Source: Bacteriovoracaceae bacterium
GTDB taxonomy: Bacteria > Bdellovibrionota > Bacteriovoracia > Bacteriovoracales > Bacteriovoracaceae
Assembly (NCBI GenBank): GCA_023954635.1
Contig: JAGSHI010000025.1
Location: 1-36,228, forward strand
Length of the DNA stretch: 36,228 nucleotides
Reading direction: 5' to 3'
Shown: piece after piece, positions 30,914-36,050 of the stretch
Layout of the letters: each line of letters starts with the position of its first letter
How positions within the stretch are numbered: position 1 is the first letter of the stretch
Made by a program: the position numbers and the translations under genes
The notes under the pieces: model-generated
Told to the model about the DNA's origin: nothing
Databases searched by the model: none
What the model saw: only the letters and a program-made list of their open reading frames with translations

Positions 30914-31131
30914 CCGAAATTAAAGCTACTTATTGCCTCCTTTCCCTATCCGTGTTACAAACAAGCCTTGTAATAAGACTGTTTGCTATTATCTTTATGT
31001 AAGCACTTGTTGCGAAAGACATTTATTTTCCTTATCTGGGGGTGCCCTGGCTTCGACGAGGCATACAGATTTTTGAGGAGCGTGTTCGGGTTGGTCTCCA
31101 GGCCCGGTAAAAAGGAGACCACATAATAATT

Positions 31132-31167
31132 GCTGATTCTTATGAACCAGCTGCAATGGCCGCTTAA
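31132..31167 (+). other. Proteolysis-tag reading frame of tmRNA
   Basis: From the likely resume codon GCT (31132-31134; upstream TAATT aligns with the TAGTC before the E. coli resume codon) the frame encodes ADSYEPAAMAA and ends at TAA (31165-31167). Most bacterial tags end LAA or VAA; this one ends MAA. The resume codon is inferred from the conserved upstream context. Confidence 0.75.
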
Positions 31168-31388
31168 TTAGCGATCCCATTCATGAGGCGCCTGTGCCAA
31201 GAAACAGAATCAGGCAAAATTGTTAAGATTGCAGTTTAACTAATCTTCGAGGCTGCCAGGTCTCCTCGCTAAAAACTCACTGGGGTTTGTCGATGGCACG
31301 TAAATCGGACAGCCTTGTTCACTGGCGATAAATGTGAACTACACACGTAGCGCTTCATTTTGACGTTGTTTCGGACGTGGGTTCGATT

Positions 31389-31404
31389 CCCACCACCTCC
31401 ACCA
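31389..31404 (+). other. Recombination core (attL-like) at the end of tmRNA
   Basis: CCCACCACCTCCACCA, the last 16 bp of ssrA. The 15-bp form recurs at 31944-31958 and 36011-36025; at 33930-33943 the first C is replaced by T, leaving 14 identical bases. Sequence upstream of it here is tmRNA and is unlike the upstream part of the three downstream copies. This is the pattern expected when an integrase restores the 3' end of its target RNA gene. Confidence 0.8.
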
Positions 31405-31419
31405 CGACTTGCTGAGTCA
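31404..31419. repeat. Left-end dyad of cassette 1
   Basis: ACGACTTGCTGAGTCA directly follows the tmRNA core. GACT and AGTC form an inverted repeat. The same motif with three changes (ACGACTCGACGAGTCA) lies three nt after the last core at 36028-36043. Possibly the right half of the recombinase site or an accessory protein site. Confidence 0.5.
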
Positions 31420-31443
31420 CGCTTAACTTGTTATATAGGTGAT

Positions 31444-31878
31444 ATGAAAAAGAAAATTGAAAACTTTCTAAGCACTCTGCCCGAAAAAAGACGATCAGAG
31501 TTCAGTGAAATACTAAGTGTATTTAGGAAAAATATTTCTAGTGAGTTTGAAGAAGTATTAGATGGCGATATGATTCGCTTTGAATTACCTCTTAAACTTT
31601 ATCCCAACACTTACAATAAAAAGCCTCTTATGTTTGCTAGTCTTTCAAATAGAAAAGCTAATATGACGATGACATTGACGGCAGTTTATAATGACCCAAA
31701 AATAAAAAATTCTTTTATTGAAAATTGTTCCAATAAGAAAAATAAGTTGGAAACAAAAAGAGCTTGTATAAAATTTAAATCGATCGATGAAATTCCGCTG
31801 AAGTTAATCGGGACAAGTCTAAAAAAGATAAAACAAGATAAATTTGTAAAGAACTATGAATCTTTGATGAAAAAGTAA
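31444..31878 (+). CDS. DUF1801 (YdhG-like) protein
   Basis: 144 residues, cytoplasmic (no signal peptide). Matches the DUF1801 fold: N-terminal LSTLPEKRRSEFSEIL, DMIRFELPLKLYP, PLMFASLSNRKANMTMTL, and the C-terminal TKRACIKFKSIDEIPLKLIG, which aligns with the GKSCIRFKKLDDLPLDVIG block of the family. The family is sometimes called iron chaperone-like, but its function is unsettled. The ATG at 31444 is preceded by AGGTGA. The gene begins only 39 nt after the end of tmRNA with no clear promoter of its own, so read-through from the ssrA promoter is likely. Confidence 0.82.
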   Translation: MKKKIENFLSTLPEKRRSEFSEILSVFRKNISSEFEEVLDGDMIRFELPLKLYPNTYNKKPLMFASLSNRKANMTMTLTAVYNDPKIKNSFIENCSNKKNKLETKRACIKFKSIDEIPLKLIGTSLKKIKQDKFVKNYESLMKK

Positions 31879-31884
31879 CAAATC

Positions 31885-31958
31885 GTAGTACTTTGTAATA
31901 ATTTCGACTTTCGCGCCAGCAATAACATTTACTTATAAGGCTGCCACCACCTCCACCA
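31885..31958 (+). repeat. 74-nt cassette recombination module, copy 1
   Basis: Begins GTAGTACTTTGTA (31885-31897), then TTTCG and TTTCGC seven nt apart, AGCAATAACAT, a 15-nt variable part, and ends with the core CCACCACCTCCACCA (31944-31958). By eye it aligns without gaps to copies 2 and 3 (51 and 53 of 74 positions identical). Fixed length and end sequences, and absence of any homology to tmRNA outside the core, mark it as a functional site and not a tmRNA duplication. Confidence 0.8.
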
Positions 31959-32031
31959 CTATGAACGCTTCGCATCGTATTCTTTGTCTATTTTCTAGAT
32001 TAAAATTTTTGAAATTAGTTTATGAGGTTTT

Positions 32032-33828
32032 ATGAAAAGTTTATTAGTCAGTTTGTTGATGATATTTTCTTCTCAATCTATCGCGAATTCAAATCCATGT
32101 GTTGAACAAACAGATGAAATGGGACAAAAATGGGCTGCCAAAGAAGGCAGGTCTCAGGCCGGCGGCTGGATCTTCTTTACGGGCAGGGGCTACGGAGAAA
32201 GTCGTGAAGAATCCTACTTTCTATCTGAAGGGCAGGCCCTTAAAAGGTTGATTCAAGAGTGTAGATTTGTTCACAAATTCGCCAAATTCAATGAGCGCTG
32301 TGATGAAGAACTCAGTGGGAAGGTTTCATCTTTTGTACGAGTAAGTGTTCGTGATGATAATTGCAAAGAAACGTCTGGAAGTGATGAGAAGAAATATCAA
32401 AATCCAGAATTAAATATACAATTTGTTAATTATAAGAAAAAAATAGCTGCAAAACTAAGTAGTAAATATTCAAGCACTAAAGAAAAGGAAATTGATTCAA
32501 AAATTCAAAAAATTAATAATCAATTGAATCAACTTGTCATGCAAAAGAGGCAAGGAAATATTAACCAAACAATTAAACAAAAAAATCAAGAGATCATTGA
32601 TTTAAAAAGACAACTCTTTCAAAGTGCAAAGTCATGTAAGTCCAAAACAACTTGTTATGACTTAGCAGAAAAGAAAATTTCACAAGGAGAATATTATCCG
32701 GCAGCAGTTTATGCCCTTGATGCTTGTGAAAGATACGGCAGTGGTAAGGCGTGTAATCTTTACGGTGTTATATATAGAGACAATTTTCATAAAGTCCTAA
32801 AGTCCAAAGATGGATTTAAAAAAGGTTGTAATCTAAAATATGCAGAAAGTTGTTATAACCTAGGTCTCTTATTCTTTCCGGGAAAAACAAAAGAACAGGG
32901 GCTCAATTATTTGAAACTTGGCTGTGATCTTGGATATGGTCTTAGTTGTACTAAGTATGTTTCTCGTCGGTATAGAGACGGAAAGCAAATTTGGAAGAAC
33001 AAGAAAATTGTGAAAAGTCTTTATTCATTAATGGATAAGGCTTGCTTAAATCACAAAGATCCCAAGGTTTGCATAAGTGCTTCTGAAAAAGCTTCTAATT
33101 TAGTTAGCATGAAGAATGAGAATAAAGCATTGGAGTACGCAAAGTATGCATGCTTAAACTTAAAAAGTCTTGCTGGTTGTAATCGTTTATCAAAAGTTTA
33201 TTACTGGCCCAAGTTTAAGAATTTAAAACTTATGGAAAAGTATGGATTAATGTCTTGCTCGCCAGAATATCTAGAAGGCTGCTATGACTTAGCGAGTTTT
33301 TATGAATACACACTTAAAGATAAGATCAAACAGATTAAATATCTACAAATGGCTTGTGACCAAAACTACGGCCGAGCTTGCGCCGGGGTAGGTCTTTTTT
33401 ATGATCGGAAGCTAGATATTAACAACGCTCGTATTTACTACCATAAAGCTTGTATTATGAAAGAAAGTCGAGGTTGTGGTTTCCTTGCTCATCTTGAAAA
33501 ATATCATTTTAAAAACCTTGTGGCGTCTAGAAATGCCTATCAGATGGGTTGTGACCTTGGTGGTCACCAGGCCTTAGAGAACTGTGCAGGAATTGCCATG
33601 CTAAATATTGAAAAACATGGATTCAATAATCGCGATTGGAATTTAATTGATCAAGCATGTCACAGAGATAAAAGAGGTATGTCTAGAACAGTATCCGGAT
33701 GTTTTAATCGAGCTATTATTGAAGAGAAATATAAAAAGAATAAGAAAGCGGCAAAAATTTTTTACAAAGACGCTTGTGAATTAAAATGGGCACGTGTCAT
33801 TAATGAGATTGCTTGTAAAAAAATGTAA
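32032..33828 (+). CDS. Secreted Cys-rich Sel1/Hcp-like repeat protein
   Basis: 598 residues with signal peptide (about 1-18, ending SIA). The N-terminal domain (about 20-115, with GWIFFTGRGYGESREESYF) is followed by a short coiled coil (about 140-200). A long series of Sel1-type helical repeats, each with a Cys pair, follows: for example GFKKGCNLKYAESCYNLG, YLKLGCDLGYGLSC, QMACDQNYGRACAGVG, YYHKACIMKESRGCG. This is the pattern of the Helicobacter cysteine-rich (Hcp) proteins, which form disulfide-locked solenoids that bind other molecules. GAGG lies five nt before the ATG. Composition is very AT-rich in the middle. Confidence 0.82.
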   Translation: MKSLLVSLLMIFSSQSIANSNPCVEQTDEMGQKWAAKEGRSQAGGWIFFTGRGYGESREESYFLSEGQALKRLIQECRFVHKFAKFNERCDEELSGKVSSFVRVSVRDDNCKETSGSDEKKYQNPELNIQFVNYKKKIAAKLSSKYSSTKEKEIDSKIQKINNQLNQLVMQKRQGNINQTIKQKNQEIIDLKRQLFQSAKSCKSKTTCYDLAEKKISQGEYYPAAVYALDACERYGSGKACNLYGVIYRDNFHKVLKSKDGFKKGCNLKYAESCYNLGLLFFPGKTKEQGLNYLKLGCDLGYGLSCTKYVSRRYRDGKQIWKNKKIVKSLYSLMDKACLNHKDPKVCISASEKASNLVSMKNENKALEYAKYACLNLKSLAGCNRLSKVYYWPKFKNLKLMEKYGLMSCSPEYLEGCYDLASFYEYTLKDKIKQIKYLQMACDQNYGRACAGVGLFYDRKLDINNARIYYHKACIMKESRGCGFLAHLEKYHFKNLVASRNAYQMGCDLGGHQALENCAGIAMLNIEKHGFNNRDWNLIDQACHRDKRGMSRTVSGCFNRAIIEEKYKKNKKAAKIFYKDACELKWARVINEIACKKM

Positions 33829-33869
33829 TCTATTGAAAAAGTCTCTCTGCAAGTATTTAATCTCTGATT

Positions 33870-33943
33870 GTAGTACTTTGTAGTTATTTTCATTTTTCAA
33901 TTAACAATTTAAATTAGTAACGAGGCAATCACCACCTCCACCA
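33870..33943 (+). repeat. 74-nt cassette recombination module, copy 2
   Basis: GTAGTACTTTGTA at 33870-33882; preceded by T, it gives TGTAGT at 33869 and again at 33879. It ends TCACCACCTCCACCA (33929-33943), one base different from the 15-bp core. This is the most diverged middle (TTTTC and TTTTCA in place of TTTCG and TTTCGC, AACAA in place of AGCAA), yet the total length is again 74. Confidence 0.78.
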
Positions 33944-34070: not shown

Positions 34071-35570
34071 ATGAAAGCGATTTACTTAGTAGCACTTTTT
34101 CTATTCGTTAGCTGCGCCGGTTACAAAACTCAATTTGATTCTCAATCTAAAAGTATTGAAGGACAGTTTTGGGATGATTTTGAGCACTTATGTTTAAATC
34201 AAAATATGTCGGCTTATAAGAAGAGCACTTATAATAATAAAGACTACCACGATAATGTGACTCCAGCAGTTCCAGAGGAGTTCAGTGGCCATCTCCATGC
34301 GGAAGTTAAAAAGATTGAGGAAATTAAGCACAAGTATAACCTTGTGGGTCCAATCGTTCCCCCGCCTAGTGCTCTAAGGTCAGACAACCGTCTTTCTAAA
34401 GAGATTAAAAAAACCGGCTCCTTTCGGGCGGCTCAAGGTAGGCTCATTCAGCTGGATAAGCGTTGTTATCGAAGCGCTGAAAATCGGCAAAGTTGTCTAG
34501 AACATCTCTACTCCCGGAGGATGACTTATCCCTATAGAGTATCCTGCAAATTAAAATATAAAACGATGGAAAAAAGTAATGAAAAAGGGCGGAAGGCTTT
34601 AATCGAAGAATTTGGCAAGAGATACGGCCCCCAAGCTTTAGAAGTGGGACGAGTAGTTTCTTCTAGAAGTTGGACCCATGTCCGTTGGGATGATGCCTTG
34701 ATTTTTCTAATGCGCGATAATCTTTCGATTTTTCTAATTGGCTTTAGTGAAGATTTCAAAACAGAGATTCAGCTCTTAACTTTTTCAGACTCATTTCCCA
34801 TCACAAAAGAAAAAATTATGGGAAAAACAGAAGTCTTAGATTTGTCACCCATGGGGCTAGAGCACGTGAAAGGAAATATGAAAGTTACTTTGGATTATTT
34901 TAATCGTATTTCCAACCGTGCCGCCAGATATGCCGCAAAAAACTGGGCGAATATGCCGACTGCATCGTCCCCGGACTATGGAAGTGGATTTAAGGATGCG
35001 CTTTCTTACGGTCGCTCAACTCATAAGAGTATTCTCAAAAACTCCTACTCCAATAAATATGGCAGCGGCAGCAAGCCCAGAATTTCAGGCAAGGCTAGTA
35101 AGTACAGCTCTTCTGTTAGCTCCGCCCCTGTCAAAGCCTCACCTATAGTGCGAGTTAAGAATTTAAACACCAACGCTTATTACGGCGTGACAAAAGGTTC
35201 CTCCGGCTCAGCCGCGGACCCTGCCTCCTCTGCTTCCAGCGCGGGGGGCGCTGCCAATGCTAATGCTAATAAAAAAAGCAATGCTAAGCACCCAATGATT
35301 ACTTGTTATAAATCCGGCGCAGAATCAACAAAGCAGCTTCCCCTTGGCAAGAAGTATGGCCTTACTGCTAATACCAAGCTGATCAAAAATGTCCCGGCCA
35401 TTTGCAAGTTCAACTCAGGCCCGAAAAGGTTCTTCGTACCTATCTACAGTATAAAGATAGACGTGTTTCCAAGCTGCAGCGATGTGGTTCTCAATCATAG
35501 CTCCATATCCGCCGCAAAAGAGGAATGGCTTTCCGCTAACAAACATTGTTCATTTGGAAATATCTTATAA
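34071..35570 (+). CDS. Lipoprotein of unknown function with low-complexity linker
   Basis: 499 residues with lipobox FVSC (C15). The N-terminal part (about 20-290) is mixed alpha/beta with no family I recognise. It is followed by a Ser/Gly/Tyr/Ala-rich linker (about 300-410, with NKYGSGSKPRISGKASKYSS and SSASSAGGAANANANKKS) and a small C-terminal Cys-containing domain (about 410-499). Base composition is unusual: the 120 nt at 35161-35280 are about 54 percent G+C by hand count, far above the neighbouring genes, and GCC, TCC and GGC codons are frequent. This points to an origin outside the host lineage. Confidence 0.68.
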   Translation: MKAIYLVALFLFVSCAGYKTQFDSQSKSIEGQFWDDFEHLCLNQNMSAYKKSTYNNKDYHDNVTPAVPEEFSGHLHAEVKKIEEIKHKYNLVGPIVPPPSALRSDNRLSKEIKKTGSFRAAQGRLIQLDKRCYRSAENRQSCLEHLYSRRMTYPYRVSCKLKYKTMEKSNEKGRKALIEEFGKRYGPQALEVGRVVSSRSWTHVRWDDALIFLMRDNLSIFLIGFSEDFKTEIQLLTFSDSFPITKEKIMGKTEVLDLSPMGLEHVKGNMKVTLDYFNRISNRAARYAAKNWANMPTASSPDYGSGFKDALSYGRSTHKSILKNSYSNKYGSGSKPRISGKASKYSSSVSSAPVKASPIVRVKNLNTNAYYGVTKGSSGSAADPASSASSAGGAANANANKKSNAKHPMITCYKSGAESTKQLPLGKKYGLTANTKLIKNVPAICKFNSGPKRFFVPIYSIKIDVFPSCSDVVLNHSSISAAKEEWLSANKHCSFGNIL

Positions 35571-35586: not shown

Positions 35587-35937
35587 ATGAATAGTAAATC
35601 TCCAAAAAAAAATGATTTTTTAAATTATTCTTTTAGGGGAAAGCTTTGGAAAGATAAAGGAAAGGGGGCCTGGCACTTTATTACTATCTCCAAAAAACTT
35701 TCTAATGAAATTAGAAAAGCACACAAAGACTCTGAAGAAGGGTGGGGACGATTAAGGACTACTGCTTCCATATGTGAGACCACTTGGAATACTTCGATGT
35801 GGTTCGATACTAAAGCTGGGGCCTACCTTCTACCGATTAATTCAACTGTTCGAAAAAAGGAAAAATTATCTGACGGGGAATCTATTGAAGTTCATTTAGA
35901 GTTCAACTTAGATAAATGGATGTTGAATAAGCAGTAA
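35587..35937 (+). CDS. DUF1905 protein
   Basis: 116 residues, cytoplasmic. Matches the DUF1905 beta-barrel pattern: FRGKLWKDKGKGAWHFITI, then GWGRLRTTASICETTWNTSM, then AYLLPINSTVRKKEKLSDGE and a final strand VHLEFNLD. Function of the family is unknown; it often occurs next to or fused with YdeI-type proteins. It starts 16 nt after the lipoprotein stop and so shares its message. Its composition is AT-rich, unlike the upstream gene, so the two may have been joined secondarily. The stop is 14 nt before the third 74-nt module. Confidence 0.8.
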   Translation: MNSKSPKKNDFLNYSFRGKLWKDKGKGAWHFITISKKLSNEIRKAHKDSEEGWGRLRTTASICETTWNTSMWFDTKAGAYLLPINSTVRKKEKLSDGESIEVHLEFNLDKWMLNKQ

Positions 35938-35951
35938 GAATGTGGGGCATT

Positions 35952-36025
35952 GTAGTATTTTGTAGTCCTTTCGGATTTCGCATTAGCAAAAACATAGTAT
36001 TACGGACGTCCCACCACCTCCACCA
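35952..36025 (+). repeat. 74-nt cassette recombination module, copy 3
   Basis: GTAGTATTTTGTA (35952-35964), preceded by T so that TGTAGT occurs at 35951 and 35961. Then TTTCG, TTTCGC, AGCAAAAACAT, a variable part including GGACGT, and the core CCACCACCTCCACCA (36011-36025). The GGACGT just before the core is also found before the T-arm in tmRNA, a possible trace of past exchange or chance. Confidence 0.8.
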
Positions 36026-36027
36026 GT

Positions 36028-36050
36028 ACGACTCGACGAGTCAGTTTTTT
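36028..36050 (+). terminator. Left-end dyad of cassette 4, terminator-like
   Basis: ACGACTCGACGAGTCA (GACTC/GAGTC stem, three-nt loop) followed by GTTTTTT. It could stop transcription coming from cassette 3 and matches the cassette 1 dyad at 13 of 16 positions. The stem is short, so termination strength is uncertain. Confidence 0.45.

Follow-up and report, generated by a model that had tools for sequence, protein, structure and literature searches.

A cassette array behind ssrA in a Bacteriovoracaceae bacterium and predicted read-through into its first gene

Our analysis of a 36,228-nucleotide stretch of DNA (the window) from a relative of the predatory Bacteriovorax bacteria suggests that the first gene of a cassette array (cassette 1) is transcribed by read-through from the promoter of ssrA, the tmRNA gene directly upstream. 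We consider this the best explanation, with a probability of about 60%, because no terminator and no credible promoter were found between the two genes, cassette 1 possesses a ribosome binding site (RBS), and most cassettes are co-oriented with ssrA. Transcription from the ssrA promoter had been put forward in a first-pass annotation; the anatomy of the locus fits that proposal best, but it is no proof of a transcript. If the proposal is true, captured genes can be expressed from a stable-RNA promoter in a system that has no relation to integrons. Any gene landing at this position would be switched on at once, and these predators would mature their essential tmRNA from a precursor that extends into a foreign mRNA.

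The ssrA locus and cassette 1

The window holds the sole full-length ssrA copy of the assembly, which encodes the tag ADSYEPAAMAA (Table 1). The tmRNA gene ends at 31404 and the ATG of cassette 1 lies at 31444, so the 39-nt spacing given in the first-pass annotation is exact. The RBS that had been noted before cassette 1 is also well founded, as a 7-nt anti-SD match like that of AGGTGAT was reached by only 0.4% of letter shuffles (P=0.004). The start codon is supported by the one homologue of the cassette 1 protein, from a same-genus genome (44% over 80 aa), because the homologue's ORF begins at a comparable place. The name DUF1801 given earlier to the gene is weakly founded: a match to the family exists (E=0.0019), but its 19 bits fall below the Pfam cut-off of 27.2. 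The stop codon lies about 3 nt upstream of array site 1. In a local RNA fold of 31398-31446, the cassette 1 RBS base-pairs through its GGUG with CACC at the end of tmRNA; this pairing is no better than in shuffles (z -0.8), and an unprocessed precursor might hide the RBS.

Table 1. Features of the ssrA locus and the array within the window
Feature	Position	Strand	Details
Predicted ssrA promoter, extended -10 GTTTGCTATTAT	30981..30992	+	8.8 bits in ssrA motif model
tmRNA (ssrA)	31038..31404	+	ARAGORN; Rfam RF00023, 121.7 bits
attB-like core CACCACCTCCACCA	31391..31404	+	tmRNA 3′ end (acceptor strand and CCA), common to array sites
39-nt gap, 5′ end of cassette 1	31405..31443	+	no intrinsic terminator found
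Hairpin GACTTGCTGAGTC	31406..31418	+	-3.6 kcal/mol, no better than shuffles, no T run
Weak extended -10 candidate ACTTGTTATATA	31426..31437	+	5.1 bits; only candidate within the gap
Shine-Dalgarno AGGTGAT	31437..31443	+	7-nt anti-SD match
Cassette 1 gene	31444..31878	+	144 aa, weak DUF1801 (PF08818); co-oriented with ssrA
Array recombination site 1	31882..31958	+	model R1, 59.4 bits
Cassette 2 gene	32032..33828	+	598 aa, no Pfam family
Array recombination site 2	33867..33943	+	model R1, 74.8 bits
Cassette 3 gene a	34071..35570	+	499 aa, no Pfam family
Cassette 3 gene b	35587..35937	+	DUF1905, Pfam 72.6 bits
Array recombination site 3	35949..36025	+	model R1, 56.2 bits
Hairpin GACTCGACGAGTC, then shortly TTTTTT	36030..36042	+	start of cassette 4; weak terminator-like element inside the array

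Promoters were scored with a motif learned from 58 ssrA upstream regions of the source genome (G000) and its relatives, which yielded a sharp extended -10 motif, TTnTGnTATAmT. Scores of at least 8 bits occur in the background of this model at 0.18 per kb per strand. The predicted ssrA promoter would start transcription near 30999. A consensus promoter scan of the gap found none, and in the ssrA motif model, which rests on ssrA promoters alone and would overlook those of other sigma factors, the tmRNA gene and the gap contain no promoter above 5.1 bits. The earlier statement that the gap has no clear promoter is thus upheld, its single weak candidate scoring 5.1 bits versus 8.8 for ssrA; a score of 5.1 bits is expected by chance about 1.5 times per kb per strand. 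Taken alone, the absence of promoter hits in 39 nt is weak evidence, because fewer than one hit would be expected there by chance. A promoter inside the tmRNA gene was considered and rejected, the best score within the gene being 4.1 bits.

Neither a consensus scan nor a further scan detected an intrinsic terminator in the gap. Its hairpin GACTTGCTGAGTC is weak and lacks a T run, in agreement with the first-pass observation that no T-rich terminator follows tmRNA. This absence is informative because, among 57 ssrA flanks from the source genome and its relatives, 14 have a clear terminator with a T tract directly behind tmRNA. A different island type (inverted TGGTGG core) occupies 18 of the same flanks, and 25 belong to neither class, although two of these (G007 and G089) appear terminated on visual inspection, having long hairpins not picked up by the scan. 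As a control, ordinary transcription-unit ends in the window were inspected, and only 1 of 17 carried an intrinsic terminator. Since unit ends without hairpins are common, the absence of a hairpin is no proof of read-through, and Rho may therefore be widely used here. Termination in this region may rest on Rho or on elements that the terminator scan misses. Both the promoter and the terminator scans are simple, and the related genomes are not independent of one another.

The array and its likeness to known systems

Three array sites lie within the window, and more were found on other contigs of the same assembly. The fixed 78-nt site consists of an arm, TTGTAGTAnTnTGTAGTT, followed by an AT-rich middle and the core CACCACCTCCACCA at its end. 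A sequence-only model of 14 sites (R1) matched 49 of the 129 genomes of the family Bacteriovoracaceae, in 29 of its 48 genera, with 20 matches in the source genome and 31 in a same-genus genome. Among named members, array sites occur in Bacteriovoracaceae and Halobacteriovorax MAGs. On contigs that also carry ssrA, the listed sites all lie 3′ of this gene and share its strand.

Among 38 bounded cassettes shorter than 5 kb, 35 have their longest ORF in the orientation of ssrA. The 38 main cassette genes fall into 37 similarity clusters, 34 of which are co-oriented (binomial P=6e-8), and the median distance from stop codon to site in co-oriented cassettes is 8 nt. Their cargo includes a GNAT acetyltransferase, glyoxalase-like proteins, a BCCT transporter, S9 peptidase-like proteins and DUFs, with many genes belonging to no family. 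Strong promoters are not in excess in 36 cassette leaders (1 score of at least 8 bits versus 1.5 expected), but weak scores are mildly so (20 of at least 4 bits versus 11.9 expected). Among ordinary genes, a score of at least 8 bits was reached in 3 of 15, versus 0.6 expected.

No 3′ terminator was found in the 35 co-oriented cassettes. The notion that this lack is striking in itself was weakened by the ordinary genes of the window, which mostly lack terminators as well. Of 66 post-site flanks, a single one had an intrinsic terminator at the 5′ end of the cassette (shuffle mean 0.1); this flank resembles the ssrA terminator region of relatives, as if displaced. Several hairpins of the GACTTGnTGAGTC family behind the sites had prompted the idea that cassettes bring 5′ terminators that insulate ssrA. 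It was rejected, as the terminator count over 66 sites is not clearly above that in shuffles and the first 30 nt after sites show no more structure than shuffled sequence. The GACTCGACGAGTC hairpin at the start of cassette 4 was a match in the consensus scan and scored low in the stricter one.

Short sequence elements recur at the cassette borders. A short hairpin, GACTTGnTGAGTC or a variant of it, directly follows the core in numerous cassettes whose genes are unrelated (read on the strand of the site: window 31406-31418 and 36030-36042; L064 2913, L059 3043, L063 5311, L171 736, L176 474 and L179 3311). It may form the right arm of the recombination site. A leader composed of a hairpin, TTCTTTGTC and TATTTTCTAGATTAAAATTTT is common to cassettes with different genes in different genera (window 31959-32025; L143 of G147, directly behind ssrA; L176 474; L063 9740). 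This leader resembles part of the site's left arm and could act as a promoter or as an arm site for the integrase. At the window end, the cassette starting at 36026 matches at its 5′ side, almost letter for letter, a cassette on contig C19 of G000 (L058, 545-1490), which encodes a prolyl-oligopeptidase-like protein; either the genome repeats this cassette or the two are strain variants.

The array shares several properties with integrons. Its cassettes are tandem, mostly single-gene, promoter-poor and in one orientation, their stop codons lie close to the site, and their cargo is varied (GNAT, glyoxalase-like, BCCT transporter, unknowns). A strong predicted promoter, that of ssrA, stands upstream of the first cassette with no terminator detected in the intervening sequence, and is a candidate counterpart of Pc. 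However, the platform is ssrA and not attI, and an integron as such was rejected, there being no IntI and no attC-like fold. The integron integrase model TIGR02249 gave a best score of 44.2 bits over the source genome versus a cut-off of 265, and the integrase on contig C26 reached 39.6 bits. RNAalifold predicted 0 pairs for the 14 sites, in an alignment that extended 3′ as far as the core. In contrast to attC, the array sites have no consensus fold and carry arm-like direct repeats (TTGTAGTAnTnTGTAGTT) together with the tmRNA 3′ core.

A further parallel is found in islands that target tRNA or tmRNA genes and in the tandem accretion of elements that lack an integrase, where the 3′ end of the target is likewise restored and tandem elements share a core. 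Here, CACCACCTCCACCA is present at ssrA and at the array sites, and acceptor strand and CCA are restored. The ssrA gene is also a hot spot in Bacteriovoracaceae, with another island type in at least 18 relatives. Unlike such islands, the array units mostly hold 1-2 genes in about 0.5-2 kb, are many per genome, and each possess a fixed 78-nt site, usually with no integrase of their own. The array thus fits tmRNA-targeting integrative elements in tandem that would have been reduced to single genes. They would have been inserted by a site-specific recombinase. Six tyrosine recombinase matches were detected in the source genome, one of them adjoining array sites on C26; its family occurs in 83 of 129 genomes, beyond those with array sites. 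Same-genus genomes gave no empty site, as G001 has another island at ssrA and G002 has no full-length tmRNA match. At the far end in G060, a terminator-like flank is similar to the ssrA flanks of other relatives, but no shared protein gene was found that would establish synteny.

A protein gene that immediately follows a stable RNA gene on the same strand is also known from dicistronic tRNA-mRNA units and from integrase genes co-oriented with their target tRNA (the STI shape), where transcriptional coupling has already been proposed as a possible benefit (PMC2951348). The candidate coupled gene here differs in being cargo rather than an integrase, and the RNA is tmRNA. Our search of the literature on ssrA-anchored cassette arrays and on expression from tRNA or tmRNA promoters found no precedent for arrays.

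The assembly has an estimated contamination of about 4%. Contig C209 of G000 (L064, 1-313) carries a second tmRNA 3′ end, then a strong terminator and a 171-bp insert, in a flank identical to that of G090, which belongs to another genus. This contig is probably a contaminant. Because its flank is that of G090, some array contigs of the assembly may be foreign, and counts from other contigs carry this risk; the window itself is independent of them.

Transcription of cassette 1

We propose that a site-specific recombinase has inserted an integron-like, non-integron array at the 3′ end of ssrA, its cassettes mostly holding one gene each, and that each cassette restores the acceptor strand and CCA of tmRNA. 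Nothing resembling the terminator found behind the ssrA of many relatives separates tmRNA from cassette 1. Polymerase that initiates near 30999 would pass through tmRNA and enter cassette 1, and normal maturation of the tmRNA 3′ end would then cleave the primary transcript there. In E. coli, processing of this end proceeds by endonuclease cleavage and exonuclease trimming. What is left downstream, carrying a brief leader and the RBS of cassette 1, would be translated. The layout of the locus, the recurrence of the sites, the lack of a terminator and of a strong promoter, and the co-orientation are observations; insertion by a recombinase, read-through, this processing step and the level of cassette 1 expression are what we infer. 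In Bdellovibrio bacteriovorus, another predatory bacterium, tmRNA is reported to be highly abundant (PMC3627812).

Two other explanations were considered, and both appear unlikely. Cassette 1 could have its own weak extended -10 promoter, the candidate ACTTGTTATATA in the gap. Transcripts would then begin around 31444, at the first base of the start codon, and be leaderless or nearly so. The candidate's score of 5.1 bits falls among the lower ones of the ssrA promoters in relatives, a cassette on a contig of the same assembly (L064) begins with a similar CCTTGTTATATT, and the mild excess of weak scores in cassette leaders points the same way. However, its last -10 base is A, where 85% of ssrA promoters have T, and the background contains such hits at the rate given above. 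An RNA that starts on the ATG would also leave out the strong RBS of cassette 1. Since the RBS lies upstream of this start point, read-through is favored over a gap promoter.

It is likewise doubtful that Rho or a non-canonical terminator stops transcription at or just after tmRNA, which would leave cassette 1 nearly silent, as a stored gene. The rarity of intrinsic terminators at unit ends in the window implies that another route of termination must be common, and in several relatives a strong terminator shields the array from ssrA. Against this, merely 39 untranslated nucleotides separate the structured tmRNA from a well-initiated ORF, which leaves little room for Rho loading, and the cassette 1 ORF is intact and has a strong RBS. 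Read-through from the ssrA promoter remains the best explanation for cassette 1, given that no terminator was found, that no credible alternative start would keep the RBS, and that the cassettes as a class are built like the promoterless ones of integrons.

ssrA as a proposed anchor of the array

The first-pass annotation had further suggested expression of newly acquired genes as a functional reason for using ssrA as the anchor. Building on read-through, the choice of ssrA as attachment site would reflect selection for its promoter, which would transcribe the most recent cassette in the way that Pc does in integrons. For each new gene to benefit, cassettes would have to enter next to ssrA. 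Consistent with this are the co-orientation of 34 of the 37 gene clusters, the combination of promoter-poor cassettes with a strong upstream promoter, and four genomes from two genera (G000, G010, G146 and G147) in which the array directly adjoins ssrA and no terminator was found behind tmRNA. In the first cassette of G010, no ORF of at least 50 aa was found. The comparison with relatives makes this claim quite improbable. In G009, G090, G104, G023 and G060, array sites lie downstream of ssrA on the same contig, but a strong terminator stands directly behind tmRNA, between it and the array. The array sites of G089 are 46-180 kb downstream of ssrA, and distal cassettes lie from kilobases to more than 100 kb away; in G080, array and ssrA are on separate contigs, with ssrA at a contig end, so that the two may still be linked. 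Insertion at the 3′ ends of stable RNA genes is common, and ssrA and tRNA 3′ ends are frequent integrase targets with no expression benefit shown; in at least 18 relatives, ssrA is itself the target of ordinary islands with a different core. Transcriptional coupling to tRNA was suggested earlier as a possible benefit, not as a rule (PMC2951348).

Given the terminators in relatives, the distant sites and the finding of the adjacent, terminator-less layout in two genera, expression from ssrA is unlikely to be the general reason for the choice of site, and this part of the first-pass annotation is not supported. The scarcity of intrinsic terminators behind ordinary genes of the window also speaks against it. 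In this lineage, expression of cassette 1 appears to be incidental to integration at the ssrA 3′ end. We can speculate that ssrA of Bacteriovoracaceae is a capture-and-express platform and an independent counterpart of Pc, at which a non-integron recombinase adds promoterless single-gene cassettes next to ssrA and a tmRNA-mRNA precursor made from the tmRNA promoter expresses the newest one, but we hold this broader idea to be unlikely.

A second type of island lies directly behind ssrA in G014, G017, G077, G078, G079, G083 and G100. Its core has an inverted TGGTGG, and a co-oriented tyrosine recombinase gene is located within about 1 kb. Here, too, a gene of a mobile element could be transcribed from the ssrA promoter. 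On contig C1 of G004, the tmRNA gene occupies 762856-763240 and an array site is found at 802384; this ssrA-downstream region may correspond to the published hot-spot 'region B' of H. marinus (PMC5760749).
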